Under the pieces are notes generated by a model, which saw only the letters and a list, made by a program, of their open reading frames with translations, was not told the DNA's origin and did no database searches. The position numbers and the translations under genes are program-made. This document shows positions 28,001 through 57,800 of a DNA stretch of 64,000 nucleotides, piece after piece (within the stretch, counting starts at the first letter, position 1; the number at the start of each line of letters is the position of its first letter). Source of the stretch: Heligmosomoides polygyrus polygyrus (taxonomy: Eukaryota; Nematoda; Chromadorea; Rhabditida; Heligmosomidae); assembly GCA_947396885.1 (NCBI GenBank), contig OX377202.1, positions 105,770,198-105,834,197 on the forward strand, read 5' to 3'.

Positions 28001-31000
28001 GGGTTGTGCCACTTCCGTTGTGTCTCATTCCATCTCTATCTTCTTAGACCTCTGTGACTTGAAGGTGGTCCTTGGGGGAACAACCTCTCTAAGCGGTTGC
28101 GCCGAAACGTTAGGCGGATAAAGATATTATATCAGTCTTGCTTTCGAGCTCCAAACAATTCTACGATTCCAGTTTAACATTATGCCAAGATTCAGCGACG
28201 GTCGGACATGCAATATGATAATAGCAATATGCAATATAAAATTTAGGAACTTACCCTATCAGAAAGAGAAGAAATACTACGACATGTCGGCCACGATCCA
28301 TGCCATAATGAATTCGAAGACGTACACGACCAACAACATGCGCCTCATGTTCTACAACGGCGACGTCGACACAGTTTGTCAATTCCTTGGCGATCAGTGG
28401 TTCATCGAAAACCTGGTCGTTGCCCGGAATCTTACGGTTTGTATTTCTTCACCTTCTTTGGACCTGATGACCGGATATCATCTTTTTCACATACGCTGCC
28501 TTCATCTACACATGCTATTTATTTAGGTACTTAGGGTTGAAACCCTTTTTCTTCTTTTACAACAGACACACTACATATCTCGGCTAATATTTGTCTATTT
28601 TTGCATTAACAAATCATTAATATTATACTTTATTTATTTCTTCCAATTTCAACAATTTTACCCTATTTCTTTCACTTCCATCTTTGTTTTTAATAACCTA
28701 TTTTTGTTTTAGTAGAGAGTTGCGTGTTTGTCCCAGCGAAAGTATCCGATGAGGCTATTTGTTTAGGTACTTAGGGTTGAAACCCTTTTTCTTCTTTTAC
28801 AACAGACACACTAATAAAAACACGTTTATTATACAAACAATTAAAACGAGGAAACTGGGAGGAATGTTCAGTACGATGAGTGGATGGTAGTGATGTGAGT
28901 AGCCCGTTCGATGGTGAGGATGATGCCACTAGTACAGTCGGTTATTGGCGTGAGACGTTAGTGTAACACCCAGGGACGATGCGGTGGAGTGGCGCGGGAA
29001 GTTTCGACGTCTTGCCCAGCAGAAAGCTTCGTGTTTTCTCCCCTTTACCCGAGAAAGTAGCAGCAGAGAATCGAGACCTAGCGATCTCCCAGCGGCCCCA
29101 ACAGAGAAGACCAGCGGCGGCGGGCTCCTACGGAGAAGAGTAGCGGCGGCGGGCTCCTACGGAGAAGAGTAGCGGCGGCGGGCTTCTACAGAGAAGGCAC
29201 ACGGCGGCGGGCTCCTCGCAGTAGAGCAATCCTTAAAAAGTAACCTGTAATGGCCGCCTTTAGGCCACCTTGCCGCCATTTCCTGCGCCAATACAGCCGC
29301 ATTGTCACAGCGTCCCACAGTGACTACCGTAATCCATAATAAATGTCATGCCTAGTTACCAATACTCTATCAACCTAACAAGATTCCTAGTTTTTGCAGC
29401 ATGTAATATAAAATGACAGGACAAGTAAATAAATATAGTAATGTTTAGGTCCAGTACGACAGAAGGGAGTGGACTTATCAGTCGGCTCCGCAATTCACGC
29501 CAACCATCGCTGGATATGCAAAAGCCTGGAACCAGAACCTAGTTCAGCTAACCGTTAAGGTGAACACTGTGTCCGGGTGTAGACAATCATCAAAATGAAA
29601 ACAAAGCGATTATACATCTTTCATTTCAGGGCTCCGGCCACTTCGTCCCTATGGATCGTCCGGCTCAAGCACTTCAGATGCTCGTAAATTTCATCACGAA
29701 CCAAGCCGACTACAATACTCCAATATTCTATGTGGGCGTGAAACCTTTAAAATATTGTGTTGTTGATGGATGTTCTTATAGATGGTCACTCTACTTTAGG
29801 TAGACACAACACCTAAGCCAGTGATTAGCAATAATTCCACGACGACGACTATCGACTCTCCTCAAGTTTGCACTCGTAAGGTTGGTGTTTTATTATCAAT
29901 GGCTTAGCTAACACCTGCTAATATTTAGCAAAATTTAAGGAGTCGGATAGGGTCCTTTCGCTGCCAGGATTCAACGACACTCTCTCGTTCAAGCAGTACT
30001 CAGGATTCCTAAAGGGATCCAGCACTCACATGCTACATTACTGGTATGCCATGCAATCTCAATATTTACGTTTCTTGAAAATGATGGCTCAGCGTGAGCT
30101 GGGTCGATGTGTCTATCAGAATCCGTAATGTGCTAAGGCTATGGTTCCGTACTCAGAAAACTTTGAACAAGCTACTTGCAAGCTGGAAGCTGGTAATAGA
30201 TTGTCTCAAACTGGTCATTTGCAAGCTGCTGCAAACTAAGAGAATGACCTCGCATGCAACGTATACTAAGACAGCGCTATGATGCAGTTAACTTAGGTTG
30301 AGGACCCTTTAAATATACTTGAGATTTATGGAGAAACAATATCAAACATCAATGGTTTGTTTCGCCACCTCCTTTCAGACAAACCGTTTTTATTATAACA
30401 CCTCCTCGGTGGCTCATCAGTGAAGAAGGAGGTGTTATAATTTTCATTTTTATTATTATATTTTTAGATTTTTAATTTTTAATTTTTAATTTCAATTTTT
30501 AAATGTTCACTTTTGTTAAGTATGTTATTGTTTTGCTTTTATTTTGTTTTAGTTTTATTTTAATTTATTTTTGTTTTATTTTTTATACGCATTTTTACTT
30601 TTTAAATATTTATTGTCAATATTTAGAAATTATTAATGTCATTAACTTACATACTCATCCTTGTGCCAACCGGTTATAGAAGTTTTTCTATATAAAGTAA
30701 CCATACCGTGATCTGTTATACGGTATCTGTATGGATATATATTATGATATGTGTTATCATTGCGGTATTCATTTAATTTTTTCAATTCTTGGTTGACACA
30801 CTATGTAGTAATTTAATTAGATCAGCATTATCCATCATTTCACAATTATATCAACTAATGTCACTGCTTCCACATTCCTTTCCCCGGCATATCAATAAGA
30901 TCTACTCTTATATATGGACGTATATATTAGCGAAGTAAATTTAAGCAAAAATTTCCAATTATACGAGTATTTCTTTTAAGCCAAATGTCACGTGTCCAGG

Positions 31001-34000
31001 AACTTTTAACTTAGAGGTCCTTTAGGTAGTTTATCTAGTAGTCGAAACCAAAACCAACCACACTTGAGGGATCCATTTATATTCCTGCCATATACAAGGT
31101 TAGTGATGGCGCATTTGTGCTACGAAATCCTAATTACACAAAGCTGACACCCGCCCTTTTCGCGTCTGACGTCAAACGCGAACTTGCATAGAAGTAGTCT
31201 CATGTAACATATTTTGTGATCTATGGGCGCAGGTCGTCCAAAATTTATGCTGCAGGCAGAAACTGTCCTACCCTGTAAGATTTCTTTTTCCAAGCTTCCA
31301 CTGCGATTAGTTACCTCCAAGCTTAAAATTCCTGCATTCAACCTTTCAGGTTAGTTAGCCGCAAGAATTTAGTCACAGGTAACTTATTTTAGAGGTCTAG
31401 AGCCGCGAGCAACTTCTTTCAGGGCTCATAAGCTGAGGTAACTTGCTCAGAATTTTCTGAGTAGAGCGGGTTATGCACTGAGAGAATATTTGCATTGTTA
31501 GCGACCCAAACGTCTAGGTAACTTTCTTACAGGTATATCTTGGTTACACGCGATCTTAAAGCTTGTAAGTAACTTACATAGCTTATCTAAAAGACGCAAG
31601 TAAGTTAAATAAGGCTTCTGAACCTGCGCCTATACTTGCACAGAAGCTGCTCGTTACTTACACTTCGGTTAGTTACAAGTAACTCGGGCAATGCTAGCTT
31701 GCGACTCGCAGGTCATTTAACCACGGAAAATTAGGCACAAGTAATTTATTTTTGGAGGTCTAGAGGCACAAGTATCTAAATTTGAAGCACTTGAGTCTCG
31801 TCTAAAATTTTCTGATTCACCTATTCCGCCATATCATCGTGATATGAAAGTATGGACCACAGGATGTTCATGCTTTAGCAGCTTGGTTAATTGGATCCTT
31901 CAAACGCCCGCCCGAAACGAAAGTGGAAGCACATGCGTTAATAATTAGAAACTATTAAAAAGGTCGATGCCTTAAGAACTCAATTTCTTATAGGCTTGTT
32001 GAGGCTGAACAGGTAGATCCTGCTGGAGCTCCTCTAATACTCTGGTTGAACGGCGGGCCTGGATCTAGCTCTCTGGAGGGATTGTTCTTTGAGAATGGTC
32101 CATTCCGAATTGGTAAAGATGGGCAGACGATTTACAGGAATCCATTCGCATGGAACCAGGTCTGCCTATCCGTCGTGGTTAAGCACCTTGCCCTGCACCG
32201 TGCCTTAAACGTGGGCAGCTGGCTAGTCGGATTAAAGCCATTGTTGCTCCTTTAGTTCGCAAACGTGCTGTACTTGGAATCACCCGTTGGAGTTGGCTAC
32301 TCCTACTCGACTGATGGAAAACAACCGCAGTACACTGACGATTTGGTTTGTCTAGGTGTTGTACTCGTTAAGTGCTACCTTTGCCAATATTTATTTATTT
32401 AATACACATCTCAATGCACACAACATTGGGCTTTAAAGAAAGAGACACAAGAAGCTACAGCTATCATACACAGTCGTCAAGTACTATCCATCTATCCTTG
32501 TGTGGTTTGGTTGTAGACAAATCGAAGACGGTGATGTTTTATTCGGCTAAAGGGCATTTCGCCTTCGTCAGAGCCTGGAAAATCAAAAACCAAAGTGAGC
32601 CAACCAGTCCCAACTGCTTTATCAGGTTACAAGGGAAGGCATAGGTAACAAATTATTGACTAGTAATTTCTTGCGTCTAGGTGCCCCATCGCGTTAATGG
32701 TTTGCCATCTTTGTCTTGCCTCGTCGCCTTAAATGCCCGTTTATGCTTCCGACGCTGAACAACGCGACGGCATCGATCAATCGATTCGCTCTATCAGTGT
32801 GGCCACAATATGTAACGTCGATGTCTAGAATCTATCGTTGATCCTAGCTAAAATTGTCCCTGAGTCTGTGTGTATGTGTGTGTATGAGTGCGTGAACGAC
32901 TATAACCACGTTTATTGGGTTACATATAGAAATTAATACAAACACTACCTTGATCGTGAGGACCAGACACCGTAGGGCGAGATGCGAATGGGAATCCGGA
33001 GGTCGGCTGCGGGGGTGCAGCGTCCTCGACTTCAGGGAGCGACGCGCTGGAGGGGCCAGGGGCGCCGAAGGCGCTGGCGACGACAGTTGTCGGTGGGGCG
33101 AGGAGGGCGACGTTGAGAGCGAGGAGCGACGACCGAAGAAGAGCCCCGGAGGCGCTGGACGGCGGCTTTTGTAGAACTGCCACGCCCCCGGGACCAGGCG
33201 GCGCTGGCGGCTCCGCCCCCTGAAACCCCCTTGATTGCGCTGTTCGCGACAGTGGATTCGCTCGGCGTCGAAGTATAGACGGTCTCCAAAAGGCGGCTGG
33301 GACTGGTTGGATCACTTTGGTCCTCGATTTCCCAGGCACCGACGAAGGCGAAAAGCCGAAACGTTAGCCGAATAAAGCATTACCTCCTTGGAATTGACTC
33401 AAACCACCACAAGAGTTTAACTTACTATGTCAAGATTCACGGACAGTCGAACCTGATCAATATCAATCTACCATATTTCAGTGACAGTTTTGCCATCAAA
33501 TATGATAAATGGATACTACGTAGTAATAGCCGAAGCGGGAAGCTTGTATAAAGCAGTCCGATTTTCAGACAGCTGCAGAGAACTACGCTGCTCTTGTTGA
33601 CTTTTTCCACCTCTATCCTGAATATGCCACTCGACCGTTCTACACCACTGGTGAATCCTATGCTGGTGTGTACATACCGACATTGTCGGCTCTGCTAATA
33701 CAAGGAATACAGAACGGAACGCTGAACATCAACTATAAGGTACGATGGCTCGATTTTCACCCTTTTCTATATAGGTCAATGAATCATCTACACCTGCAAC
33801 TCTCCAAAGTACATCATCTTTACCACTTTGGCGTTCATTTTAGGGTCTTGCTGTCGGAAATGGTGTCCTTAACAAGAGAACTGATATGAATTCACTCTTC
33901 CATTTGTCCTATTACCACGGTCAAATGACTCACAAGTAGGTTATACGTTTCGATAACTGGCGCTATCCGAAATGAGTGCGTGGAGAGAATTTCAGCGGTC

Positions 34001-37000
34001 CACCTAGAATGTGATAGAGCGCATCTTAGTTGGACCGAAAATGCAAAAATGACATCCGGAAAACACGAAACACAAAATAAAATAAAAAGGAAAACAATCA
34101 CCCATAAGCGTCTGCAGGAAGCCCTCTCTTGGACTTAAAGGGCTCATCTACCCTATCGAGCGCGAGTCCTTTCCAACAGGACCGCTTAAGACCTAATCGC
34201 TTGCGGCAAAGCGGCGGCCCTTTCCTTATGTGTGGGCTTCCGTTGCCTCTAACACAAAATTAATTAATAATCCGCGTTTATTCTAATTGTACAAGTAAAG
34301 GCGAGCTACCAGAGCAGAGAAACTCATCAAGACTGAGACAGCGAGGGCGGTCCTTCTAGAATACAAAGGAGACGTCTTGTACTTTCTGTTTTCAAGGAAG
34401 AAGACACTGTAGGCGTACTGTGAATGCACTATTTTTTTGTCCGTCTGAGGTCTCGCGGGTGAGAACTCATGAAAAAGTAGCGGCAGCTGGTGCTTGCCGC
34501 GACACCTTAACTATACCTCGCCTCTTCCATTTCTCGCCGAGGGACGCAGAGCTTGCCGCCGGCGGCAGGCAAGCTCTGGGTGCGGGAGCGGCAATGATGA
34601 TGTGAATCTGGGCGGCAATGTTGAATCACATCAGTATGGTCGCCGCATCGTTCTGTCTTGTCTACGCGCTAGCCGGCGGCGGCAGATATCAGCCAGAGCG
34701 CAGGCATAAGGGGGAAAGCGAGTAGCAGCAGTAGGTCCCGACCAGAAAGAGTACAGTGCCTTGACCGCTTGTCGTCGCTGTTTGTCGTCAGCAAGACTCG
34801 ACAGTGTGTGAGCTGCGGGCTTTACGAGTGTTGCTACCCGCCGCCCGTCACTTCCGGAAAAGTGCGCGGAGGCCTTTACTTCGTGCGTCGGTGCGTGAAA
34901 GAACGCCCACATGCGTTGTATGTCGTGAATTATGAAAGCGACAATAACCGGTATTCAAAGAACTTTCTTATTGTAGGACCTATCAGGATGTGATTTCTCT
35001 GTGCTGCGCCAATGTGACTAATGAGATGGACTGCCGTCTTGACTCTCACATCACCTCATGGAACGGTATGATACTCGGCGGTGATCCGAACGATCAGTGC
35101 TATGCTTATGTGAGTAGACTGACTTAACTCTATCGTCTCGTTTCGATGATCGTCGAGTTGATCGAACTTGAAGCAGCAACGGCTTCAGTGGAAGAGTCTG
35201 GTAAGATGCTTCGTTCTAGATCATTCAAGAGGGCATCAACATTCTTCTCAACGAATTTGATCCCTACAATCTTTACGAACAGTGTTATACGCTGAAGACT
35301 GGTAACGGTACTGCTCCAGTTGGTGACACATGGGTTAGTCAGCGAATCTGATTCTATATCCTTGGAGCCCAATTTTTTTGGCGACAATTTTGGAGGTTCT
35401 TTTCTACAGACCGGCAACAACTACGACTCGTCAGATCCCTTTGCTGGCTATTATTGTTACATGAATGATGCTCTGACTTTCTACATGAATCAAGATTCTG
35501 TGCGCAGAGCTCTCCACATACCAGCGACTGCCTCAACATGGCAGGCAGACGGGTAGGCCAACATGGCAGTTTGTCAAATTCCAAGGTATCGTATGAATTA
35601 CTGCAATTTTAGCAATATAATCGCAATCTACAATCAGACGTACCCTACTGCCGAGCCATCTTTCGATTATATCATCAACAGGTTGAGCTTTAATAGCATT
35701 TCAAGCAGGTCACGATTCAATGTTCGAATAGAGGACTCGTGGGCATTTCTGGGAACATGAACCATATACGTTTTGCTTGCTGTATGGAAGCTCGCATTGT
35801 GACAGACAACATTTACGGTCCCCAACGCGACAGAAACAGCTCTCCTAGCCCGTCTGAACGGAGAACCCTTCAATATGAACAATCCACAATATGTGGATAC
35901 AACCTGGCTGTTCCTATCGGCGGCCTCACAGCTGGAGGAAAACCCTGCTCACGAGGTTCTCGTCCCATGCAACATCCGAGGTCGCCCTGAAGGATCAAAA
36001 CTCATGGGAAAGGCCTTAGAGCCCTTTGTCGTGATGCCACGTAATGAGGCATGCTGGTGAATATTGACGCGTATTGGTACTACTTACTTGCGGTGGAAAC
36101 TCTAGCACGGTCCCTCTTCTTCCATCCTCAGACTCGCTGCTCTAGCCTGTCCACGCCCGAAGGAAGAATGCCAGTTTGGGACTTACCCTTCTCCTCCTTG
36201 ACGTGGCACACCGAGCAGCGAATCAGGTTTATCTCAAAAACTTAGTGAACATAAATAGAAGGAATAACGGAGAAGAAATGCATGCTGAGCTCTCCGTGGT
36301 CGAAATGGATTTAGTTTCTGAGCATGAGGAGGGGACCGTGAGGGTGAGCATAGTGCCTACTATATCTCATGGACCTCTCCCGCTGCTTCTGCTGTGCACG
36401 TATTGAGCTGCAGGACCAAAGCTTCATGACAGCCATCCGGAATGAATAGACGGGAACATGATGTCGGCAGACCTCGTCGCGGGAGCGCAGGATGATCAAT
36501 GCGGCGCGCGTCGATCATTGTGCCGACATCAGCACTTTCCCATGCTCCCAGGCCGATCGATGGAGCCTCATCGCAAACCGCCAGGAGGAACAGCGCACCG
36601 GGTCAATCACAGGAGAAAGGAGCGATCGAGGTTGCGACACTGGCCCTCGTATTATACCCATCACTCATTTCCGACATCAGGTGTCATTGCATTGTATCAT
36701 GTTTTGTTTATACTACAGACTTCGGTACGAGCCGAATTGTAGTGTAGCACCGCAGGCATAACATGAGAGCAGGAGCACTTCAGAATGGGGCTAGCTAATC
36801 ATCAAGGCCGTATCAGAGCCGTGCGCGTCTCCCAATTGCAACACTATAACTATGCAGCCAGCAGTGATAGTAGCCAGGTACAACTAAGCTTCTGTCCATT
36901 CGGGACGGAAGATGTTCTATTTCCCTCTGTTGAAATTCGAAAGGTCGGCGACAACGAGCGTTTACAACTATAGGTATGGGTGAGCAAGATTTAGTGGCAT

Positions 37001-38311: not shown

Positions 38312-39424
38312 ATATTCCAACAACATGTCGAGTTTCTGATAGTTTCCGTGCAATACGTTTTTGGAACGGAAGCCTTGTCTTTTGTGACGTTGGGAGCTTT
38401 GCTAAGATTAGAAACTTTCAGTGAGTCTTGCTTTGTCACATTAACTAAATGGAAATCAAGCAAAACCATGTGACAGTGCGCATCCTAGGTGGATCATAAA
38501 CGCTCAAACACGAACCGCAATCAAACAAGTTTGCAAGAAAAACAAAAAATAGAAACACTCACTCGCGTTCGACCGTGCAATACTCCCGCCTCACGTCGTC
38601 GGTGACAGTGTTGCGCGGGTCGCTACGCAGTATTGAGAGAGTGGAATTATTCAAGGCATGTAGGATATTGAAGTGTGTGAGGAGGGTAGGGAAGGTAGTG
38701 TTAGTTTGCTAGTGAAGGAGAGCAAAGATTTGTGCAGTGGGAGGGGCTCCAGGGTATGGCTCGAGTGACACAAATAAATATTCAATTTTATTGTGGTCAG
38801 TTGCAGAATTGAGGCAAACGGATTTTGGACTGCATCACTGTTCAATGAGGTTTTGGTAGTTCGTACTTGGATTGGCCATATTCATTTTACGCTTGATAGA
38901 CTGACATAACATTGTAACCCAAATAGTGTATGTACAGCTACAACAACATTGTCCTTGTTGTGATTGTCTTATTGCTTGTATTGTGTTGTTTAGCTTGTTA
39001 GCGGGTCCGCCAGCGAAGGCGAAGTAGGCAAAGATGATGAAGAAGAAGAGAAGTGAATTTTCAGCCGAGGGGCCCGCCTCTATTTATACCGAAGAAAGGT
39101 GGGTGGTGTTTATCGCGGTGTAGGCGGGCGGAGCATAGTTGCAAAGTGCTATAAAGATACTGCTGTAAACCATGATTCACGAACTACTGGCTGTTCGTGT
39201 GACTCGTGAACCACTGTTTATGACAAATGGTGTTTTGTATTACTCAAATAGATGTCTAATTGACTAGGAATATTTTTTGCTGATTGCCCAGCTTTTCTAT
39301 TTCTATTTTTGCGCCTAAAATTTAATGTCAAATTTTTGAATACCCGGCCAATGGAACGAATCCAAGTACCATGGAGTCGAAAGTCTTACGCCGTAGACCA
39401 GAGGTATGAGACAGCACCTACACC
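38312..39424. other. Intergenic sequence after the carboxypeptidase
   Basis: No canonical AATAAA for 450 bases; CATAAA at 38494 or AATAAA at 38772 are candidates. Otherwise unremarkable, with small ORFs only. Confidence 0.5.
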
Positions 39425-39843
39425 AGGGGTCGGATTTATGAACGCGGTCGGAGGTAAATCCTACCCTCACTTACCTCGAAGGCCACTTACCCGCCACTTT
39501 ACCTGAACTTACCCCTGTTTCTGATTCATGACGGCCAAAGCAAGGGTTTCGCTTCACGGCCAATTTCTGACCCAATACATCCCTCCGCTGGCCCGCTGCC
39601 AGCTCTGAGCTGGCAACGGGAGAGCGGAGGGATGCATTGGATCAGAACTTGACACCGTAGCAAAACAGCGTAGCAAAACCCTCGCCTTGAAGACAAATGT
39701 TTCCCTACGCGCTGACGAGGTAGCATTTACCTCGACACTTACCTCGGGGTTTCTCCGCCGCGCGTTGATGAATCGCGCGTAAGTGGGAGTGGGGCAAATC
39801 TCGCACTTACCCGCAGGTAAGTCGTTCATGAATCCGGCCCCAG
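39425..39843. repeat. Fold-back MITE (GGGCCGGATTCATC family), copy 4, long
   Basis: Ends AGGGGTCGGATTTATGAACG and GTTCATGAATCCGGCCCC, inverted. Interior has paired TTACCTCG and CGAGGTAA words and a GGCAGCGGGC/GCCCGCTGCC inner palindrome (39594-39625). Confidence 0.7.
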
Positions 39844-40302
39844 GGGTCAGATTCCTCAACAGCTTACTGTCCGGTTACGGTGAGAAGTACCGCCAAACCT
39901 CCTGATATTAATTTATCCATTTTCCACGCAGATAAACGATTCAAATACGGTTAACAAACAACGTTCAAAACAACAATGAACAAAACAATTGAAGTCATCA
40001 AAATGAGATAAACTAGGAATCTCATGGAGATACCTGTCAACGAGCCTTTTGTAGTGCATCAAAGAGTTAGGTAGAACGTTTTTTTTAGAGCCTCAAAAAC
40101 TCGGTGCCTTCTGTATTAGTAAAGAAACCTAATTTCACATTACTTTTTTCCTTGGGATTCTGATCTTCCACTGGCCACCTCTCGTGTTAGAAGAAGAAAC
40201 GGAATAGAACTCCTGGACCTTTATATGACATTCGTTAGCATCAGGTTTGACGGTACTTTTCACCGTTACCGGCCGGTAAGCACTTGATGAATCTGGCCCA
40301 GG
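39841..40302. repeat. Fold-back MITE (GGGCCGGATTCATC family), copy 5
   Basis: Directly abuts copy 4. Ends CAGGGGTCAGATTCCTCAAC and TTGATGAATCTGGCCCAGG; the inner arms pair (GAGAAGTACCGCC and GGTACTTTTCACC) around an AT-rich loop. Confidence 0.65.
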
Positions 40303-40340
40303 TTGGAATGCGAGACTGTGGTGGGGCTTGAGCTTACACT

Positions 40341-41570: not shown

Positions 41571-41899
41571 CTGGGGCCGGATTAATCAACGACTTACAGC
41601 AATTTAACAGAGAAAATTACAGCCGAAATCCCAGGCGGAGTGGCGTTCTACCCCACCCTTTAAACAGAGGCGTGGCAAATGTCTGCGTCTCCACTATCTC
41701 GTAAAGCGGTCACTGGACTCTCAAGCCCAGGGATTGGGGAGTGGGCGGGCCAGGGGGACGAGGGGATAGAACGCTCGACCCCCTAAATCCCATGATTGCC
41801 CGACCTATCAAGTATGGTGAGCGATAAGCCGCGTTATCTGAGTTTTCCGCTGTGAATTCTCTGTTGAAGTTATGTAAGTCGTTGATGAAACCGACCCTT
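41571..41899. repeat. Fold-back MITE (GGGCCGGATTCATC family), copy 6
   Basis: Ends GGGGCCGGATTAATCAACG and GTTGATGAAACCGACCC with longer inner arms (AACAGAGAAAATTACAGC, then TTCTCTGTTGAAG). Confidence 0.65.
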
Positions 41900-42819: not shown

Positions 42820-45800
42820 CTAATTTATAGTAGGATAATCGTTTCCCTCATAGGAGTCATCATACTGAACGTCTTCTTCATTCACACTGCCGTCATTTTT
42901 AGGTATCCATCTTTGAGGCGTTGGACAGATTCCTAAAAAGTCGTTGTCGTCAATGTTTCGTGAACTAAAACACTTCGCAAAAGTGGGTCTTTACAAAACG
43001 CACCAGTTATTCTGCATATCCAAGCCGAATGCTGAGTAACGTCAGTAAAATGGTCCCTTATGCCGATTCGTTCCATCGAGGGCGACTTTACGTGCCAGTC
43101 TTAAACTAGTATTATGAGATCATATGTTTAACGTTTAATGTATTGAGTTTGACGCGTGCGTGACAGAAAAACTCGACCAGTAGAGAAGATGCCGTAGTGA
43201 CAACTTTGATATCGACCTGCATTCGGCTTAGGCCTATGGTATACTCCCGCGTCGCTCCAGCGATGGGCGCGGGGCAACTGTCAACGGCGCGCCTTCGCTG
43301 CAGTGGCGGACGGCGCAGTGGGGCGCGGTTGTCAGTTGACGCGCCATCGCTCCCGCGATGCGTCGCAGAGGGGTATTATACCTCCGCGTCGCGGGAGTGA
43401 AACATACTCCCGTGCGACGGGCTGCGATGGTCGCGGAGGGGGAGCGCTTGTCATGCCCTATTCTATGCACTTCTACTCACTTATTTCGACACTTCCTTGG
43501 TTCGTGACCATACCACAGCAATTTCAACACACGTCTGGTGATGTTGGGTGGTCATGTGATGTCTCTGTTGTTCTTCTCGTAGAGATTTCGTCGTGGCTAG
43601 AGTCATTTTGGGTTTTTTCGACGGCTTGAACGGCTGCTTTTCGGATGAGATGTTTTTCTAGGTCGTTTTCCCCCTCTTTTGTGCCGATTCTCGCATTTTT
43701 TCGCCTGTGAACCTCCTCGACGGCACAGAAATCCACATTTTTGTGCCGGACAAGTCACAGGGGCGTTCTGCTGACATGTCCGGCACGGAAATGTGCCAAA
43801 TGAGCGGCTGCTTTTCGGATGAGATGTTTTTCTAGGCCGTTTTCCCCCTCTTTTGTGCCGATTCTCGCATTTTTTTCGCCTGGTTTCCGTGCCTGTGGAT
43901 TGCATGAGGAACAAAAGAAATGCATGAGTCGACACAGGCATGACGGAATCCCCCCCCCCTTGTAAAACACCACTTTTGAAAAATTGGGCCACAGCTGGGA
44001 CGTTTCCGTGCTGGACACGTCACGAGAAGCCTCTCGTGTCGTGTCGAGCACAGAAACGTGGGTTTCCGTGCCTGTGGATTGCATGAGGAACAAAAGAAAT
44101 GCATGAGTCGACACAGGCTTGGCGGAAACCCCCCTTGTAAAACACGACATCCACGAAATACCATTGAAAGCAACAACCCTACGACGGCATACGGATCAGA
44201 AGGCGACAAAACGGGAAAAACGCGAAATCACGAACGAAAAGGCTGAGAAAACAAGGAATCCGGGAAAAAATGCACTGAATCAGCTGATTCGCTAAAATTC
44301 TGCAAAAGTCTCCGTCTGCAGAACTGCGTGAACTATGTCAGCCTCAGCGACGGCGACGGCTCGCGACGCGCATCGCGAGCCATCGCGTCGCTGTGCACTC
44401 CCGCGTCGCGGCAGCGGACGGGAGTATACCATAGGCCTTAAGTTTTGGCGTAATCGCCTTCTTCAGAGCTTGGAAAAGACCAGGGCCGGGTTCATCACAG
44501 ACTTACCGGCCGATAACGATGGAACATGCCGCCATACCTCAACTTACCTTGATTCGTCAACGTGCGGCGCGGTAGGTCTCCGGTGAGAACCGCTGTAACG
44601 GTAACTCGTCTATAGCGTCGAGAAAACGACGCGGTGAAGTGCCGGTAAACCTCAACTACTAAAGTCTGACCCAGTGGCGACGAGTTAGGCCTATGTTATA
44701 CTTCGGCGACGCTGTTGACGACGACGTCGGAGGCAGTGTTGCGCGGGCTGCTACACTACTGTGTAGCACCCCTTCAACGCTGCCGCCGACGTCGCCGACA
44801 ACAGCGCCTCCGAAGTATAACATAGGCCTTAGGTCCCGTTTATACTTCGACGCCGAGCGACGCGACGCCACGTATTGTGGCCATATTGATCGGGCGACGC
44901 GATCGATTAATTTGGCTACTATACATGCCGTCGCGTCGCTCGGCGTGGGAAGTATAAACGTTGACTTAGACGCACTGCCATGTATAGTCGGACACATGCG
45001 CGGCATCCTTCACCCCGCGGCGCCTTTCGTGAATCACATGGGCCGGTAAGTCTCTAGCAAAGAGCCGGTTAGGTGAATTTGTGGCAACGATTTAGCTACT
45101 CATTCACTGATGAATCCGGGCTCAGGAGAGTTTGAGAAATTACCTCTTCAGCAATAATTTTAAGTTTGAATCATTTAAAAGGCTAACCGGTGAAAGAGAC
45201 AAACCGTATGGAAGACTACTCAACTGACATTATGTAAACTGCCGAAAAGCAGTTGAGCCACCCTTCGGATGGAGACAAATGTGGGTGGATGAGGTCGTTC
45301 CTTTGGAACAGCTATTCAGTGACCTCCTGGCTGGCGCCCTCGGCAAATAGTGCCAACAGTTGGGTTAAGCCAACCAATCGATCTGAAGAGCGTCGGCTAG
45401 AAGGTCGCTGAGGAGCTAACCCGAAAGGAGGACCTCATTATTCCACATTTATTTCAATCCGAAGGGTAACCCAACTTTACATTAGGTATGTTGGGTTGTC
45501 TTCCTCGCGATTTGTTTCTTTCTTCCTTTAGCTTCTGAAATGGCTGAAACTTGACATGATTTTAAGAGGGGAGTTTCTCAAACTCTCCTTGCCTTTTCCA
45601 GACTCTGAAGAAGGCTGCTACACCGGAACGTAGGCCGAATAAAGGTTCGATATCAAACTTGGCACGACAGCTCGACGATAGTCTTTCTTACCCCCCCCCC
45701 CCCCCTCCTGGAATGTGTAAAACTCGGCCGTCTGCTTCTTCAACCTCTGAAATAGAAAGGCGGCGACTTACTTCCCTCACATGTGTTTCCGTATGACATA

Positions 45801-48800
45801 ATTCCCAACAATTCACTTCTGCCACCTTCAATATATTGAAATAGTGGCCCTCCGCTGTCACCCTAAATTATACTTACTTGATCTACAGGGTGGGGCAGAA
45901 TTACCCGTGCACCTAAACATTTTAATTTTTTTAAAATTTTTTACAACATTTTCCGCTTTATTCGCCTAATATATTTTGACTGATCATTATAGAACTCATA
46001 CGTACTTGAGTGCAAGGTGGTTAGGCGTTCCAACCTGCGAGGTGCTATTATCAAACTTCTAAGACCGGCAAGCAAACGAAAGATATTGTGAAGATCCTTT
46101 CCGTGCCTCGAAGAACGGTTCAGGATACAGTAAAACGTTACAAAGAATTGAAGACCGAAGAGGATAGAAAAGGAAGAGGGCGTCTCAGGATAGCTACCAA
46201 CCGGAAAAACTCGTGAGAGAAAAAATACGGAAAAACGCCAGGAGATTGATGCGCCAGATGGCAGAAGACGTAGAAATAAGCAAAAGGTCAATGAGGAGGA
46301 TAGTCAGGGGAAAGCTCCCTTTTTTAAGAAGTTTCCTTATCGTCTGCAGAAATGTCAACTCCTGACGGACACTATGAAGAAGAGGAGGCTGTAAAGACGC
46401 AAGAGGTTGCTGCAACGATTCACGGAGGCACGCGCTTGAAACATCGTCTTTAGCGATGAAAAGATTTTCACGTTGAATCCAGCCTTCAACTCTCAAAATG
46501 AAAGCATTATTGAGGACTCGCTTGCTGATGCCATCGACAAAGGACGACTTCAGGAAAGTGCGAAAAGGCCTCAATCCATTATGGTTTGGGGGGTAGTCAC
46601 ACCTTCAGGAAAAACTCCACTTGTTTTTGTCGAAGCTGGCGTGAAAATCAACGCAGCGGTTTACAAGGATATCCTAGAAAAAGGCATCAAGCCGTGGGCC
46701 GATACCCACTTCGGAGAAGCCAACTGGTCTGCTCTGGCACACAAAGCGAAGGTGGTCCAGGAATGGTGCGCCGAGCAGCTGTCTGAATTCACCACACATG
46801 GCGATCCGAACTACAGTTCTTCGGACCATAACCCTATGGGTATTCTGTGTGAGCCGTCTTAGAGAAAAAAGCCTGCTCTACCAGGCGCCCAAATTTGGGC
46901 TCTCCTAAAGAAGCGCTTTTGAAACCCTGGGACGAAGATGATGAACCGTACCCACATGCCACATGCGAAGCCTTTGTCGAACGTCTGAAGGACTGTGTGG
47001 AGGCGGAAGGCGGTAATTTCGACAACTGTTAGCACGCTTTGAATTACCATGTTTGTAGTAGATAATTTTAATAGTTAGAATTGATCTGCGAAGTTTGATT
47101 TCAAAATGCCATTTAGTTTTCAGTGCACGGGTAATTTTACCGCACCCTGTACAGTCGCATTTTTGGTGAAAAGGCACTCACAGAACAGATTCCTACATTT
47201 GGGGCTGTACAAGTGACGATGAAGTTATCTCGTTGATAGTCGAGTGTGACATTGACCACCTGGTATCCATCCGTATGGGCATTGCGGTTTGCTAGAAGAA
47301 ATTCTTCTTTAGTGAATCATGGAATACGGGGCAGAGCCTTTTTGTTGGGGTTTTGTTTCGGTTTCGATGAAGTGATGTTTTCGTGCCTGCGCACATTCCG
47401 GCGTTTTTTGTGAGCTTCCTCGCTGGCAGGAAGGCCCACATTTCTGTGCCTTTTCCGTGCCTGCGAGCAAAATAGAAATTGAAAGGAATGCCGGAATGAA
47501 CGCATTAGCGAAAAAACCCTTAGCAGAACATTCACCTGTCACCTGTATCACCTGTCGTCCCGTTGATCATCGAATTGCTCGAGCGGGTGCCAGCAGCGTC
47601 TCCATTCGTCCCTGTCGCGTGCCAGAGTGGTCCAATGGATCCTCCTCGCTCGAGGGACACGAAGAGCGTCATATCGGTCGTTCAGGGCTTTCACGACGAA
47701 GTCCGACCAACGCGTTGGTGGGCGTCCTGGTGTTCTCTTGACATCCCGCGGAATCCAGTCGGTGATGGCTCTCGTCCAGCGGGTGTCTGCGAAGCGCATT
47801 ACGTGGCCGGCCCACCTAATTTTCGACAACATGGCCCATGCGACAGCGTCTCTGATCTTCGAGCGTCGGCGAAGCTCGGAACTCCGGAGGCCTTCTCTCA
47901 CTTGCGTGAGTCGTTTCACTCCGAGCATCGTCCTCTCGATTCCACGCTGCGCGACGCTGATCGCGTGTTCATCCTGCTTTCGTATAGCCCAGGTCTCTGA
48001 GGCGTATGTTAGGGCAGGAAGAACAGTGGAGTCGAATAGGTGGGCACGGAGTCGGACGTTCTTCGTCTTCTTCGCGACTTCTTCGACGCTCTTGAAAGCT
48101 CCCCAAGCCGCTCTTTTCCTCCTGCTCAGCTCTGGTGCTAGGTCGTTGGCCATGTTGACTTCGCGACCCAGATACACATAGCTGGAGCATTCGGAGATGT
48201 TCGTTCCGTTGAGCGAGAATGGGGCATCAGAAACCCATCCGTTCCTCATGAACATCGTCTTCGTAAGATTCAGCTGCAGTCCAACGTTCCCACATACACG
48301 ATCGAAGTCGGCCAGCATTCGCTCCGCCTGGCTGATGCTCGGCGTTATGAGCACGATGTCGTCAGCGAAGCGAAGATGATGTAGTTGCCGGCCGTCGACC
48401 TTCACTCCCATGTCTTCCCATTCTAGTTCGCGCATGACGTTTTCGAGAGTGGCGCTGAAGAGCTTCGGGGATATGGTATCCCCTTGCCGAACCCCTCTCT
48501 TCACGTCGACGACGACGTCGTTGTAGAATGGTGAGATCTTGGTCGTGAATCCACTGTACAGCTCTCGAAGGACTCTGATGTACTGAGTAGGAACGCCCTG
48601 AGTGAGCAGGGCTTCGATGACCGCTTCAGTTTCGACAGAGTCGAATGCCTTCTTCAGGTCGATGAACGTAAGGCACAGCGGCAGCTTGTACTCTCGCGAC
48701 ACTTCGATGAGCTTCGTAATGGTGTGTATGTGGTCGATCGTGCTGAATCCTCTCCGAAATCCTGCTTGCTCGCATGGCTGTCCTTCGTCTAGCGTTCTGC

Positions 48801-51800
48801 TAATCCTATTCAGGATAACTCGAGTGAACAGCTTGTAGACTACGGACAGGAGGCAGATCGGGCGATAGTTGCCAATGTCGTGCACGTCTCCCTTCTTGTA
48901 CAGCAAGACGGTTCTGCTGGTCTTCCACTGAGATGGAACCTTGCACTCCGACAGGTAACGTGTGAAGAGCCGCGCCAGGGTGTTGATGAGCGTAGGCGGG
49001 AGGTTCTTCAGGTGTTCGGGTTTGATCCTGTCGGGACCGGGTGCTGTACGTTTCTTCACCGACGAGATGGCGTGTCGGATCTCGGAAGGGAGAACAGAGG
49101 GGACGACGTATCCATCCTGCGGAAGATGGCATGGGGGCAGGTGGACGTGGCTATCGAAGAGATCGGAGTAGAAGTCGTGGATGACCCTTTCCATGGTCCT
49201 TCTGGAAGAGGTGACGGTTCCGTCGGGACGTCGGAGAGCTGTCATCTTGGTCTTGAAGTTGGCGAAGTTCCGGCGGGCATTGCGGATGCTCAACCCTGCC
49301 TCTGCAGCTTCAGCCAACACTTCGGCCCTTCTCTCCTTAAGATCCTCCTTTATCGCCTCTCTGCATAGCTTCGCAAGCTCGGACGTCAGTTGGTAGTTGC
49401 CTGACGCTCGTGCTGCTCCACGCTGGCGTATCAGCTCGAGAGTTTCCGGAGACAGACGTCTCTTGGTGGTCTTCAAGCTCTCGGCTCCCTTAGCACTATC
49501 GTGGAGATGGTGCACGAAGCGGTCGTATTCCTCGTCGACGTTGTCCATGACGGGATCTTCCCAAAGACCGGCAAGAGAGGTGTAGAGGTCCCAGTTGATG
49601 GTCGTTCTGGGACCCCTCTTCTTGAACTTCGCGGCCTTCTCTCCTTGACGCGAAAAGCGGAACCTTGCGCGAAGGAGGCGGTGGTCCGATCCCGTGTAGA
49701 ACTTGGGGACAACGGAGACGTCGGTCAGGCAATATTTGCGGTTGGAGATGATGTGGTCGATCTCGTTGTGGAACTGGCCACCGGGAGATTCCCAGGTCCA
49801 TCGTAGGGAGGGAGGCTTCTGGAACTGCGAGTTTCCATGGATGGTCTTGGTCGACATGATAAACTCAGACAGCCTTTCACCTTGCTCGTTCCACTCCAAA
49901 CCGTGGGTTCCGATGTGAAGTTCTTCCGGCGACCTTCGCGGTCCGATTTTGGCGTTGAAGTCGCCGACGATCACCTTGTAGAAGGTGTGATCTTCCTTAT
50001 AGAACTTCTCCAGCTCCACGTAGAAGGCTTCGACCTCTTCGCCGTCGTAGTCGGATGTTGGGGCATACGCGACGAATACAGTCAAAGCTGGCACGGAACC
50101 ACATCGCTTCAGTCGCAGACGTCCGATTCGGCTTGTCAGAGACTCGTACGAATCGATGTTCATGGCCAAGTGCGTGTTGACGAGGACACCAACGCCGCCT
50201 ACTCCCCTGCTGTCGCATGTTCCGAGGAACAGTTCTTCTCCGGAGTCGTAGGCGGCGTGCAGGGGGTGGTGTCTTCTCGTCTCGGTCAGTCCGATGACGT
50301 CGTACTTGATCTTCCTGGCTTGCGTCATCAGGTCCTCGACGGATGCTTCCGACGCAAGCGTGCGGGCGTTGTAAGTACAGATCGTCATCCTAGTCCTTCT
50401 CAGTTTGCGCAGCCTGGTTAGGCCCTGAGATTTTAGCGGCCTCTCCGTACTCGTCCTTCCCATCGCTGCAGAAATGGGGGCTCTTTCGGGGTCAGGGGAA
50501 TGAGGCCCTTTAGTGCTGCTGTGTTTGACTGGAATACAACACGGGTAGCTAGTCAGGCTCTGTCGTGCGGGCGGGGTACTCCGGGCAGCCAGCCAGACTG
50601 CCCGAAGGGACGGAGCGAGACTTAAGGCGGCCTCGAATCGCCTTACATGTACTCCCAGTCTACCGAGTGCAAGCTTTTGGCCGAGCCGACACAGTTACAA
50701 TCCGCACAGTCACGGACACATCCACGCACACTGTGCACGAACATGCCGCTCCCACGCACAAGGAACGCATCGACCCGACACAACAGGAGCAAGGAGTCCA
50801 TCCCCTGCATCCCACCTGCGTCTCTGGGCAGTACACGGTCGCATTTGGTTCGCGTTTAATTCCCCTATCCACCACCCGGGGACGCGCCACGTGGCCCTGC
50901 GACAAGCGGCCCGAGATCCCTCTTAACAAGAGAGCTCGAAGGCTCTCTATCGAGGGAGATCCGTGGAGCAGAACATTACCTCGAAAAATACGCTTTGCAA
51001 TAACCGAACTTACAATGGCAAAGATGAGGAGGTAACACATCGAAAAAAAGCGCAAACGCGAACGGGAACATAGAAATGGTCGAGAAAGCTAGGGAAATTC
51101 ACTGAACTAGCTGAGTTGCAGTAAATTCAGCAAAAGTATCCGTCTGCAGAACTAGGTGAAGAGTGTGTCAGCTATAGAGAAGGCGACGCCTCGCAACGCG
51201 CGTCGCTGCGGCGGAAGGGACATAGCGTAGGCCTAAATGGGGCTGCTTTCCTATTCTGTGGAATGAAGGTTTATTTTCACTTGTAATAGTAGAACCTACA
51301 ATAATAGTAAACACATGATATGTAGTGACGCTGCGGCCGCACTCGGCACCATAAGTGCAGACCTAAAGGACGGTTCCGCAACGATCGGAAACCGCACTTT
51401 AGTCATGCCTCTGGATATTATTCAGGGGCGTATTCATTACAATATACAATACAACATGTTTGCCTATTTATCTTAAGTCTTGCCATTCAACGCAAGATGG
51501 TCTCTCTATATTATAATACAATAGTACATTAATATATCTAGATGTGGAACTAGTTCTGCATTCGCAACATCTAACGAAGAAACTTACGAGATGAGTAGCC
51601 ATGTCCCGCTAAGTACAACCTTCTCGCGATCGTGCTGGTAGGTCCACCTATGCAGATCGGAATATCGCTCACATCATCCACTTCAAAAACAACCAAGTCG
51701 TGTTTATTAGTGCACTCATTGTACAATTCGTTATAGAACATCTGAATACAGGGCTATTTACGACGACAATATCCACATAGAGTTTCTCATAGGTTTGCTG

Positions 51801-54800
51801 CACCTCTTTTGGTGTCACGGCTTTTTTCAAGCACTTTTCAGGTACAGTGCATCGACTGCCTATGACGATTCTGAAGTCCTCCGCTTTGCCGAAAAAACGA
51901 CGACTGTTTCTAAAGGAACTAAGGTAAGCTAATAACCACTAGAGGCAATACAACGCAGATATCTCGAGAGATACCCATCCTTATAGAGTACTTGAATGAC
52001 TGGACTTCTGCTGGCTCTCACAGAATTATTTACAAAATTTTATTATCATTAGGTAATAAGCACACTGTACATGTATAGAGCTCCCTGCGTCCGGTAGGAG
52101 CTTCACTTTGCAGACTGGCTAACTATGTGGGTGGCGCTTACAGGGTAAAAGACAACGCTCATGTCGAGGAAGGTCGCGTTGCTGACGCATGCCGCGACAT
52201 TTCTCGGCCCAGAATTTTTGAAAAAGGAAACTATAAACTATGGCGTTGGGAATCAAGAATTGATTCTTGTGTATGAATTTCTCGTACCCTGGTCTTTAGT
52301 GCCATGGTGACGTTTTCGGCCTCTTGTTTCAAAGCACGAAAATCGTTTTTCTCCTTGAGTTATTCTATTTTTGAGAGCATGTCTTTTTTCTCTTTTTTTT
52401 GCCGCATTTGTATAGGTCTGGATGATCGTTTGGCACACCTCTTTTAATTTTATAATTTTATTTTGAACATTGTCCAGCGCAGGTTGAAGTTCACACAGCC
52501 TTTTCTGGCAGTACACTCGTATTTCTGATTCTTCAGGTGGAGGCTCATTGGCTCAACTGCCGGTTTGTAGAATTCATCTATGCTTCGTAAGCTGCAGCAC
52601 TTCTCTTCTAGACATTGAAGAGGAAGGACTACTTTAATCATTTTGTTCCACTGCGGGTGTAGAAAGTGCTTATTTATTTATTTATTTATTCACTACGTGG
52701 ATAACCATGAAAAAGAAAAAGAAGGCAAAACTAAACATGAGTTAGAGTAACTGTAAACGGGAAAAAACAAAACAGGCAACAAGAATTAACATAGTGCAGT
52801 TAAAAACTACTAAGCTGCATCCTGAAGATAATGGTCAAGAAGTTTTTTATACTTACTTAAGGAATTTGGTATAATGTGTTTTTTAGATAACCTCAAGTGT
52901 TATCAAATAATCAGCGGTTCTTGGCCTTCGGAGGGAGAACGGGCTGATACTATGCTACCACGCGGGACTGAGACCGTGGTGGCCGATGCATCAGAAATTC
53001 TCTGCTGGCTCTCACAGAATTATTTACAAAAAACAATACAAATTCATTTAGGAGCTTCACTTTTCAGAATGGCTAACTAAGTGGGTGGCGCTTACAGGGC
53101 AAAAGATGCCGCCCATGTCGAGGAAGGTCGTGGCGCTGACGCATGCCGCGACAGGACTTTTTCACTTGACGACAAGCATGTGCGCAGTGTGACAAGTTGG
53201 ATTGAATTTTCCTCAATGAATTAAGGTAACCAGTGGTTCTCCGCAACGGGCGGGGGGGGGGGGGGGGTATCACTGTCCTGTTCTCGGATTTGCCCACAAA
53301 GCTCGGGATCAGCCCTTTCTGCAGTATGCTGTGGGGAAATGGTGGAATGGTCGAATGGGTGGAAGTTAGAGCTTGGTCCTAAAAAAGAAACGGTTCACTT
53401 TCGCATGGGTTCATCTAATAACATTTTGAGCTACAATTTTGAAGGTAATCCTACAGCCAAATCGCATAAAGTGCAGAATCTCTGCTTCTCATGCAATGAT
53501 AAACTTCACTCTGGTGAACACTTTGAGGGAAATTCACAAAAAGCGATATTTATTTATTTACACATAAATGTGCGCACAATTCTAAACTAAAAGAAACTGA
53601 GGGACACAGCATGGTGAGTAATACAACGCGATGAAATAAAAACAAACAAAGAAACTTCAGCAAATCAAAGTGCTACATCAGGACGTACTGTAGTATTTGC
53701 AGGAGGGGAAATTTGATGAAAAAACAAGGGCTGAAATATTTTGTAGTAAGGCAGAACTAAGGAATGAGGGCTGATTAGTGGAGCTGTTAATGTTGATATG
53801 ACACACGCTCCAGATCTTTAAGGTATTGAAAACAACCAATAAAAATTCACTTATCTTTGCTGATGCCACTAAAGTCAGGCAATTATACAGCAGGGGACTA
53901 CTATTTTCGATCAAAAAACAACAACAAAGGATGTGATTATACGCGTATCCACAAACTTCTTAGTAGAGTTGGTGGTTCTCAATACTCCAAAATATTTCAA
54001 GCGTCAATTGGGAATAAATATCATTTTATAGGGAAAGTTTTTCGCAGTTTTCGAAGCATAAAGGTTTTGGCAATTTTGGAAGAAATGAAAAGCCCTTTTA
54101 AGAAAATAAGTAATGATCATGTTCTACCACTCTTCTTCACTTTTGGGGCAGACTTCTGATGCCAGCAGAACGCTTCTGGAATTGGCTCCAAGACATTGTT
54201 CAACCAGAGCGATCGCTTTTAAACGTGAATATTTTTTCTTGCGTGGCGTTGGAGCAAAAGGAGTAGGTGGTAGTCTGGGCGGTACAATGAGTGGGGTAGC
54301 GCTTCCTATCCAAAGTCGAGCAGTTTTGGTGAGTCGCTCTTGGAGTGTGTAGGCAAGCATTGCCATGCAGGAATCGGATCGTGCTGGGATTCGGGCGCTT
54401 CTCTATGCCTATCCATCTGCTGACAGTACAGGTCTGCGGTGAGGGTTGTGTGGCAGTAGCTTGTAATGAATGACACGTCGGCAATCCCACCAGGTTCAAT
54501 CCCAATGAGGGGGGGGGGGCGGGGCCACTCCATACTCACGTCGAAACACTACATAGAGATGAATACTTGCCACATAACATGACTACCTGAACCCCTACTG
54601 TGGCTACTGCAGTCTTCCTCCTGAAATAAAGAGGAAATTTAGACGAAAAAACGCCGGACGAAAAGACGAGGAAAAGGCGCGTCGACAGGCTCACCGTGGC
54701 AATACGTACAGGGATAGCCGTACAATGGCCGTGGTTCGATAAGTGGAGTCGATAAGCAGATATCCCTGTACGTATCGGCACGGTGAACCGACGACGCGCA

Positions 54801-57800
54801 CATGCGTTCCGGCCTGAGGCCGCCCTGCCCCCGCCCCTCAATGGGATTGAACCTCCCACCAAACGCCGAACTTAATTTTCAGATAGTGGAGGCCTAGCTT
54901 TGGCTGCACCTCAGGGTACACACCCTAGTCAACCCAGTGTTGACTGCGTTTGATGTTGACGTAGATACACCACTTCTCATCTCACCCTAGTCAACCCAGT
55001 GTTGACTGCGTTTGATGTTGACGTAGATAACCACTTCTCATCTCCTGTGTCAAGTCTGCCAGTTATCCGTGGCCTCTACGAGACGGATAGCCACCTCCGT
55101 TATGGGGATCTAATACGCCAACTTCTACACCCTACGAAGTTATCGCAGGTGAAGAGCAAGTGTAGCCCTAGACTTTATGCCAGTTCGCGTATGATTTGCC
55201 GTGAATCTGATACCACTAGCCGCTACAATCGGTCGTTCTTGACTTCGGATGGACATAGCAACCGGGTGGAGTCTTAGATGCAGATGCCTTTATTACGAAA
55301 GCGAACGAGCCAATCCCGTGCATTGCGTTTGGACACCGTACCGTCCCCGAATGCACTGTTGACGCGACGGATACGGCCGCCTATTCGTCAGATTTATAGT
55401 CGTACTGTAGAGAGCCGTACTGTAGATCAGCGTCGCGCAGCGTGGAATCGAGAGGACGATGCTCGGAGTGAAACGACTCACGCAAGTGAGAGAAGGCCTC
55501 CGGAGTTCCGAGCTTCGCCGACGCTCGAAGATCAGAGACGCTGTCGCATGGGCCAAGTTGTCGAAAATTAGGTGGGCCGGCCACGTAATGCGCTTTGCAG
55601 ACACCCGCTGGACGAGAGCCATCACCGACTGGATTCCGCGGGATGTCAAAAGAACACCAGGACGCCCACCAACGCGTTGGTCGGACTTCTTCGTGAAAGC
55701 CCTGAACGACCGATATGACGCTCTTCGTGTCCCTCGAGCGAGGAGGATCCATTGGACCACTCTGGCACGCGACAGGGACGAATGGAGACGCTGCTGGCAC
55801 CCGCTCGAGCAATTCGATGATCAACGGGACGACAGGTGATACAGGTGATGCTGTAGAGAGCCACGATTCTACTCCTTTGGAGCGGGTTATTCATGAGCGA
55901 TCAACTGATAATAATAATAAACGTGCACATAACTGGTCTACCGTAATACGCACAAGAAAAGTTGCCGCAACACGGTGTGAGAAAAAAACTTGAATGTACG
56001 TTTTTTGTTCCCACTGTGTTGCAGCGACATGGATTCAATTTAGATACATTTTAATAATTTGAAGAACCAAGATAATAACTTTTATGGTTCGTTTCGCCAC
56101 CTTCCTTCAGACGAACCTTGTAAATTATAACACCTCCCCGGTGGCTCATCAGTGAAGAAAGAGGTGTTATAATTTATTTTAATATTTATTTATTTATTGT
56201 TAATATAATAATTTTGTATTTTTATTTTTTTAATTTTTTATATTTTTAACTTTTTATTTATTTATTTATTCTATTTTTTGACAGCATTATTTTTTAAATT
56301 TTTTACTATAAAATGTTAAAACGAAGATATGCATTGAATTGAACACATATTTAATTTTAGAAAAGATTTTATTACAATTCGTTTAAATTTGAAATAATTT
56401 TAAAACATTTTTTGTTAAATATTGTTAGTGAAAAATAATAAACTTACAAAATTCTGTTGCTACAGCCACTCTCTTTTTTCTTTCTATATAAAGTAATTCA
56501 TACTGTGCTCTATTGTACGGTATCAGGATAGATATTGTGATATATGTTATCATTACGGTATTCATTTCATTCTTTACACGCTGAGAATGGAGGTGCTACT
56601 TACAAGTGATTCTATTAAAAAATCACTACTTTTTTCAACGCAATTACGATGTTTATTTATTTATTTGTTTATTCAGAATAAATTTATAAGTTCAATGGAA
56701 GGAGATGGAAAACTACTTCGAACTATTTGAGTGTTTTTATAAAGTTTATTGCTTTATTATAGTTATCTAACATGCTGTACTTATATAGTATTTGCCTGTT
56801 TTTATTTAGACACTTTCTTATATTTTCGGCAATAAATTCTGTGCTGTATCCATTATGTGTAAGTATTCTGTGAAGTTCTCTTATCTTAGTGCAAAAATAT
56901 TGAAATGTTGAACAGACAGTAGCTATTCCAAGTGTTTCTGTGTAAATGACATTATGTTTAATTTTGATTGAAATCTGTGAGTCTACGTGTGGAAACCTAT
57001 TTACTTTAAAATTGAAAGAATCTGTTTTGTTGTATAGGTTGTTTTCAATTTTATTATTTACGACTTCAATAGTTCTAGTTAGTTAATAGTTACATTTGTA
57101 TTCACTTTCGTGTGTTTTTTTAAATTCCAATGTGTTTTTATAAACTAAAGTAAGTATGTAATCAATATGGCTTTCTTTGTAATTATGAACTATAAGTATG
57201 TCGTCCATATATCTAAATGGCTTAAACAATTGGTTTCTATTTAAAATTGTATTCTTAGAGTATTCAAATTCAAACATAGACATGGTTAAGTCAGCGAGTA
57301 AAGGGCTGAAGTTACCTCCTTGAGGAACTCCTTTATTTTGTTTAAATACTATACTGGCGAATATGCAGTAACTATTTTTCAATAAGTAGTCTATTAAATA
57401 TAAAAGATCCGTTATATTATAATACCTATATTTATTATTTTGAGTTGAGTTATCAGTATAGAAAGTTTTATATTCATTACATGCTATGAAATTTTTTCCA
57501 GAATTTTTGAAGCAAAGAATAATAAGATTTTTCATTTTTTCCATTATAACAGTATGAGGCATGCTAGTGAACATGTCTGTAAAATCAGCGGAATACAATT
57601 TAACATTATCTGCGTCAATACTTGCTAGTTCTGGTGTTATTTTAGAATTTTTGATAGCCCAATATGTTTTAATAGACCTTGTATTACTAGCTACATTATT
57701 GGCGTAATTAATAAAGTGTGTTTTTAGAGATTAACAGAGCTAGTTTTTTGTCTCAAATTTGCTAAGGAAACAATTTTCCCGGCCAGTTTTGGACGTTTCA

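Follow-up and report, generated by a model that had tools for sequence, protein, structure and literature searches.

The motif and its block order

What kind of RNA could be made when the conserved pieces of a hammerhead ribozyme are joined in an order that no ordinary hammerhead has, and which element carries such a motif? A 64-kb stretch of Heligmosomoides polygyrus polygyrus DNA (contig OX377202.1; the whole stretch analyzed is called the window here) raises both questions. An earlier note on this DNA had described a hammerhead in scrambled order at two of its sites, and that observation holds. We read the motif as a type-CSG hammerhead, non-circularly permuted and pseudoknotted, in the 3′-terminal part of a Penelope-like element (PLE) of nematode type, and from its sequence we would give this reading a probability of about 0.78. 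A new RNA fold, one of the options offered earlier, has to be dropped: this block order has been known since 2023 as type CSG, from a publication that describes cleavage of two metagenomic examples (PMC10085705), and what is new here is its occurrence at the 3′ end of PLE remnants.

The motif is 89 nucleotides (nt) long and occurs on the minus strand at 30442-30354 (copy 1) and 56174-56086 (copy 2). The copies align without gaps and are identical at 79 of 89 positions, and CUGAUGA, GUC, and GAAA(C), the core pieces first pointed out, are intact in both. Read from 5′ to 3′, copy 1 begins with a single A, followed by the 5′ strand of a 14-base-pair (bp) helix that we call P0 (30428..30441), the stem I strand TTCTTCA (30421..30427), which adjoins CUGAUGA (block C, 30414..30420), the stem II strand GCCACC (30408..30413), and 2 nt. 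The second half consists of the 14-nt 3′ strand of P0 (30392..30405), a 6-nt linker to stem III (30386..30391), the stem III strand GGTTTGT (block S, 30379..30385), the C of the cleavage site, the other stem I strand TGAAAGGA (30370..30377), and block G (30354..30369), which comprises GGTGGC (stem II, 30364-30369), GAA, and ACAAACC (stem III). Copy 2 is arranged alike, with the P0 strands at 56160..56173 and 56124..56137, block C (TTCTTCA, CUGAUGA, and GCCACC) at 56140..56159, block S (GGTTCGT, C17, and TGAAGGAA) at 56102..56117, and block G (GGTGGC, GAA, and ACGAACC) at 56086..56101. By the hammerhead rule, the cut after GUC would fall at 30378|30377 in copy 1 and at 56110|56109 in copy 2. 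The invariant core bases and the A15.1-U16.1 pair (hammerhead numbering) are unchanged in either copy. The block order in both is CUGAUGA (C), cleavage site (S), GAAA (G). Since the classical orders are given as CGS, GSC, and SCG (PMC10085705), C-S-G is not a classical circular order, and the claim that no circular permutation of a normal hammerhead yields it was right.

The pairing bears out most of what had been claimed. Stem III has 7 bp, with A15.1-U16.1 counted in, and stem II has 6 bp in both copies (GCCACC/GGTGGC); the pairing CCACC/GGTGG given earlier forms in both but is 1 bp short. All three stems had been said to form, which is true of stems II and III in both copies, but the pairing TGAAGGAA/TTTCTTCA proposed for stem I is complete only in copy 2; copy 1 has TGAAAGGA instead, with one A·C mismatch and two G·U pairs among the 7 counted. 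In both copies a fourth helix, P0, connects stems I and II at their far ends. It is paired in 28 of 28 cells (one cell per pair and copy), and its outer 7 pairs are all A-U. In types SGC and CSG a helix seemingly joins stems I and II (PMC10085705), and P0, the outer hairpin stem whose match to that bridging helix the earlier note missed, appears by its position to be the same helix. The C-S-G order, together with P0 as the joining helix, is why we file the motif under type CSG.

Over the two copies, 67 of the 68 pair cells of this structure are standard, compared with 45 to 59% when the partner strands were slid against each other. Stems I to III, which adjoin the core, account for 39 paired cells of 40, the exception being the A·C in stem I of copy 1. 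The compensatory change that had been noted in stem III is real: one U-A pair in copy 1 is C-G in copy 2, the only double change. One pair of P0, the innermost, goes from C-G in copy 1 to U·G in copy 2. A shuffle control for covariation (249 of 500) is uninformative at two rows. Of the 10 differences between the copies, 4 lie within the 6-nt linker. The motif is better conserved than the A-rich stretch directly upstream, where 118 of 188 positions are identical with 64 gap columns set aside (Fisher P value = 4 × 10−6).

Coding could explain this conservation if the ATG inside CUGAUGA (30417-30415 and 56149-56147, minus strand) opened a PLE reading frame. The frame runs 22 and 32 codons to a stop, and the open reading frame (ORF) of an Anolis PLE has been described as likewise beginning within its hammerhead. 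Eight motif codons differ in this frame, however, with 4 silent and 4 residue-changing differences by hand count, so that no clear coding constraint is seen; a loose search with the start-peptide motif matched 0 of 47 proteins, many of them partial, and the stems are not predicted by coding. We consider it most improbable that coding accounts for the conservation.

Chance and classical hammerheads

We scanned both strands of the window, in all six block orders, for CUGAnGA, GAAA, and UH directly adjoined by three stems, each of 4 bp or more. Only two places were found, both in the order C-S-G and both the sites described above. Their uninterrupted stems I/II/III measure 4/6/7 bp in copy 1 and 10/6/7 bp in copy 2, where the run of 10 continues into the stem II strand and the named structure counts 7. 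In 8,000 dinucleotide shuffles of the window, 58 C-S-G matches and 802 matches over all six orders occurred; among the matches of any order, 9 reached stem lengths of 4/6/7 bp or more. The two copies are related and are not independent draws in this estimate. On the basis of the window scan and the shuffle counts, we rejected a chance origin.

A classical hammerhead of type I, II, or III was also rejected, as no circular order fits at stems of at least 4 bp. With the limit lowered to 3 bp, the scan also finds one CGS reading in copy 1 that uses a downstream site and has no equivalent in copy 2, together with two SCG readings at 17898; matches of this length are frequent in shuffles (127 CGS and 114 SCG per 300 shuffles). 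Rfam at its gathering thresholds matched zero families in the window. Three viral loci with classical hammerhead-like motifs (L022, L043, and L088) likewise had no match at gathering, so that this null alone proves nothing and a permissive search is the fairer comparison. At E values up to 10, copy 1 and copy 2 matched zero hammerhead families, and a type II motif from a viral contig, run as a control, matched Hammerhead_II with an E value of 8.8 × 10−5 and 34 bits (gathering score, 37).

The viral loci are observations in their own right. L043 (IMGVR_UViG_3300048837_000975) holds three type II (GSC) hammerhead-like motifs in about 1.1 kb (~60-1161, minus strand), two of which score as Rfam Hammerhead_II under the gathering cutoff. 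In L022 and L088, the same scan found a pair of hammerhead-like motifs of type I (CGS) that closely resemble each other.

The carrier is a Penelope-like element

Both copies of the motif sit at the 3′ end of PLE remnants, a membership that the earlier note missed. Upstream of copy 2 and on the same strand lies a Penelope-like reverse transcriptase (RT; 56729..57727, minus), which is 5′-truncated and carries one in-frame stop codon (57083-57085). It was recognized by tblastn, by RVT_1, which its first frame matches, and by a Foldseek search with its closest tblastn relative, P0007 (68% over 333 amino acids [aa]). A single-sequence search with the RT returned 6 relatives, the named ones being from Heligmosomoides polygyrus (43% identity) and Cooperia oncophora (41%). 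An alignment-based search returned 23 proteins, and the named additions were Pristionchus fissidentatus, a protein labelled as from an Arcobacter metagenome-assembled genome, and one "hypothetical protein." When we searched from the Pristionchus protein, 25 proteins were found, including itself, and all named ones were from Pristionchus except one from Ancylostoma ceylanicum. The relatives of the RT suggest that the element is likely of a nematode type.

We modeled the fold of P0007 from a deeper alignment (predicted local distance difference test [pLDDT] score, 83), which replaced a discarded first model (pLDDT, 46). In Foldseek, telomerase RTs took ranks 1 to 17, with modest TM-scores of 0.38 to 0.52 by query length, and group II intron RTs followed from rank 18. 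Because PLE RTs are described as telomerase-like, the predicted fold favors a telomerase-related RT of the PLE type.

Copy 1 is the 3′ end of an element only. Two of its stretches can be aligned to copy 2, 30329-30550 at 77% and 30685-30782 at 83%, which indicates that the motif belongs to the element and that both copies are remnants. The second of these stretches is the counterpart of a conserved block in the 3′ untranslated region (UTR) of copy 2 (56481..56575, minus; 83% over 99 columns). This block contains the TATA-like TTTATATAG, for which a promoter role would be a guess. The motif lies about 550 nt past the RT stop and within about 30 nt of where the similarity between the copies ends. 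Each copy is a single 3′ fragment, with no tandem copies in the window, and no shared word of at least 7 nt was found as a target-site duplication in the 60- to 70-nt flanks compared. The RT frame ends without a GIY-YIG domain, while the 5′ part of the element is missing here. In the Pristionchus relatives, what appears by eye to be the end of a GIY-YIG domain precedes the RT; Pfam gave no match on one of them, P0023. PLEs with an N-terminal GIY-YIG are of the Naiad type. The window element resembles these in having an RT of the same nematode group and in that its reading frame stops downstream of the RT; it differs in that its copies are 5′-truncated, with the N terminus outside view.

Two further features lie near this subject. 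On the plus strand, at 26668-27121, there are fragments weakly similar to another RT (P0024, E value = 4 × 10−5), perhaps from another PLE family of greater age. Nested inverted repeats (57804-58671), with three arm pairs that are 88 to 94% complementary, adjoin the copy 2 PLE at its truncated 5′ end and are perhaps a foldback or terminal inverted repeat element.

Folding and proposed activity

Nearest-neighbor folding predicts the two local hairpins with complementary loops that had been noticed at the outset, and these are the minimum-energy structures (z scores, −4.0 and −2.7). Stem II is estimated at −10.2 kcal/mol and stem I at −6.2 kcal/mol in copy 2 and −1.4 kcal/mol in copy 1. We propose that the RNA would fold into one hairpin closed by P0, whose loop holds block C, and another closed by stem III, whose loop holds blocks S and G, and that the two loops would then pair through stems I and II. 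These stems would thus be placed side by side, with the catalytic three-way junction (stems I, II, and III) at one end and a second three-way junction, which includes P0, at the far end. One stem I strand would run nearly straight into a stem II strand, and P0 would join the other two strand ends, so holding the stems side by side much as the loop-loop contact of ordinary hammerheads does. The RNA is predicted to self-cleave after GUC. Such cleavage could process PLE transcripts, separating tandem units or defining an RNA end, and the position of the motif, after the RT and near the end of similarity, fits a role at a junction.

The predicted hairpins might instead be noncatalytic kissing hairpins that resemble a hammerhead, such as a PLE signal for packaging or for RT binding. 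Both local hairpins are indeed the minimum-energy prediction, and in one PLE the RT is described as starting inside a stem-loop of its template RNA. Such a signal would leave unexplained why CUGAUGA, UC, and GAAA are placed exactly between the pairing segments and unchanged in both copies, as well as why the motif is rare in shuffles, and we think it highly unlikely.

Several observations weigh against a type-CSG ribozyme in a PLE. With 14 bp, P0 is long, and just 6 nt link it to stem III; by our estimate a fully paired monomer therefore looks strained. Another block of the UTR, the one with the TATA-like sequence, is about as conserved as the motif (79 of 91 positions, with 5 gap columns set aside), and conservation by itself is thus not unique to the ribozyme. 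Among solved structures, a sequence profile of the RT found no telomerase, its 7 matches being RTs of the group II intron or retron type, and another sequence search of solved structures with the RT gave one maturase. For the Anolis PLE, hammerhead cleavage is described as protein-assisted and as dispensable for insertion in vitro, which suggests that the role may be RNA processing rather than integration as such. No further copy was found in the viral and prokaryotic collections searched, which are weak tests for a nematode element: exact and gapped motif patterns had 0 matches in viral contigs and 0 in genome contigs, and a further pattern matched at least 120 stretches of viral contigs, with 0 of the 120 among the matches listed showing C-S-G with stems of at least 4 bp. 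RT-based patterns matched 6, 23, and 82 stretches, none confirmed as a relative, and two weak matches in phage records (E value = 0.4) were taken as chance. Finally, the comparison is one of two copies, the stem I of copy 1 is mismatched, and both elements are truncated and probably dead.

The last of these points would also suit a formerly active ribozyme that has decayed in dead PLE fragments, an account compatible with the family assignment. Both elements have lost their 5′ parts, the copy 2 RT contains a stop codon, and copy 1 has the A·C mismatch in stem I. The core bases are nonetheless intact in both copies and stem I of copy 2 is full, and we regard decay as unlikely.

If the type-CSG reading is right, the strain in P0 bears on the active form. 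The earlier suggestion of a single-chain pseudoknot or a dimeric ribozyme seems sensible from the sequence. By rough distance arithmetic, at 2.8 Å per bp and about 6 Å per linker nt, a 14-bp P0 is too long for one chain to bridge the far ends of P0 and stem III, and about 9 bp would be tolerable, which leaves an opening of P0 in its outer A-U part or a strand swap between two copies. In a strand-swapped dimer, hairpin 1 of one copy would pair with hairpin 2 of another to make two hammerheads per dimer, from two tandem copies of the pseudo-long terminal repeat (pLTR) in one transcript or from two transcripts, and the short linkers would join oppositely oriented neighbors without strain. Eckert et al. 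flag a similar distance problem for a few type-SGC RNAs (PMC10085705), and dimeric action is a possibility for ordinary PLE hammerheads arranged in tandem. The all-A-U outer pairs of P0 are able to open, however, the window holds no tandem copies, and for both published CSG RNAs cleavage in the course of transcription is reported, with no need for a dimer stated in the sections consulted (PMC10085705). The dimer is a form that we take seriously while holding it somewhat improbable, and on the cotranscriptional cleavage we would slightly prefer a monomer with a partly opened P0.

Other features of the window

An open ORF of a non-long terminal repeat (non-LTR) retrotransposon (47548-50463, minus; 971 aa) encodes endonuclease/exonuclease/phosphatase and RT domains, and an inverted repeat of its 3′ end, 99% complementary, lies at 55425-55848. 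On the plus strand, 31959-32402 holds exon-like frames of an apparent serine carboxypeptidase, recognized by eye from the motif LNGGPGSS.

Comparison with known systems

Non-circularly permuted hammerheads were described by Eckert et al. in 2023, with type CSG consisting of two similar sequences, CSG-1 and CSG-2, found solely in metagenomes (PMC10085705). Both are reported to cleave during transcription at the expected site, at rates of 0.004 and 0.026 per minute. Their discoverers held them to be likely valid and the evidence for biological relevance to be weaker than that for type SGC, because few covariation events are seen in two similar sequences that are both metagenomic DNA (PMC10085705). 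The motif described here shares with them the C-S-G order, the invariant core, stems I to III, the helix between stems I and II, two core pseudoknots, and an expected cleavage after the same position. It differs in its carrier, identified here as a PLE, whereas CSG-1 and CSG-2 come from metagenome DNA with no named organism, and in that their cleavage has been demonstrated, while here it is predicted from sequence. Their transcripts measure 77 to 78 nt and their 5′ fragments 48 to 49 nt, perhaps including some flank (PMC10085705), compared with 65 nt here from motif start to C17, so that P0 and the linker must be longer here. With type SGC, represented by HRIMA-1, the motif has in common the non-circular permutation, the bridging helix, and two pseudoknots, and it is unlike HRIMA-1 in block order and in source, the HRIMA-1 motif being from metatranscriptomes (PMC10085705).

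Finding the CSG topology twice, in diverged copies of what is likely a nematode retroelement and with one compensatory change between them, provides this type with a plausible carrier and a testable role, and the PLE link suggests where more examples may be found.

The minimal type I hammerheads of PLEs and Terminons are reportedly credited to Cervera and de la Pena (2014) and Lunse et al. (2017). Hammerheads in the pLTRs of PLEs are an established association, and those of PLEs and Terminons are described as minimal type I (CGS) (PMC7761336, PMC6155905, PMC11167929). Among the matches listed from Creative Commons-licensed PubMed Central literature (titles and abstract openings), none reported a hammerhead with permuted order from either a PLE or a nematode. 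One speculation, which we consider rather unlikely, is that a nematode PLE lineage has taken up the CSG form in place of the minimal type I hammerhead that other PLEs have. The two pLTR copies within a transcript would then form a strand-swapped dimer, and cleavage would report tandem, retrotransposition-competent RNA; the metagenomic CSG ribozymes may derive from such elements. The minimal type I hammerheads of PLEs resemble the motif found here in their terminal or pLTR location, in that dimeric action is plausible, and in that a start codon may sit in the ribozyme. They are described as having circular order and no helix III or tertiary contacts, whereas the motif at the end of these PLE remnants has a 7-bp stem III, a bridging helix, and a non-circular order.

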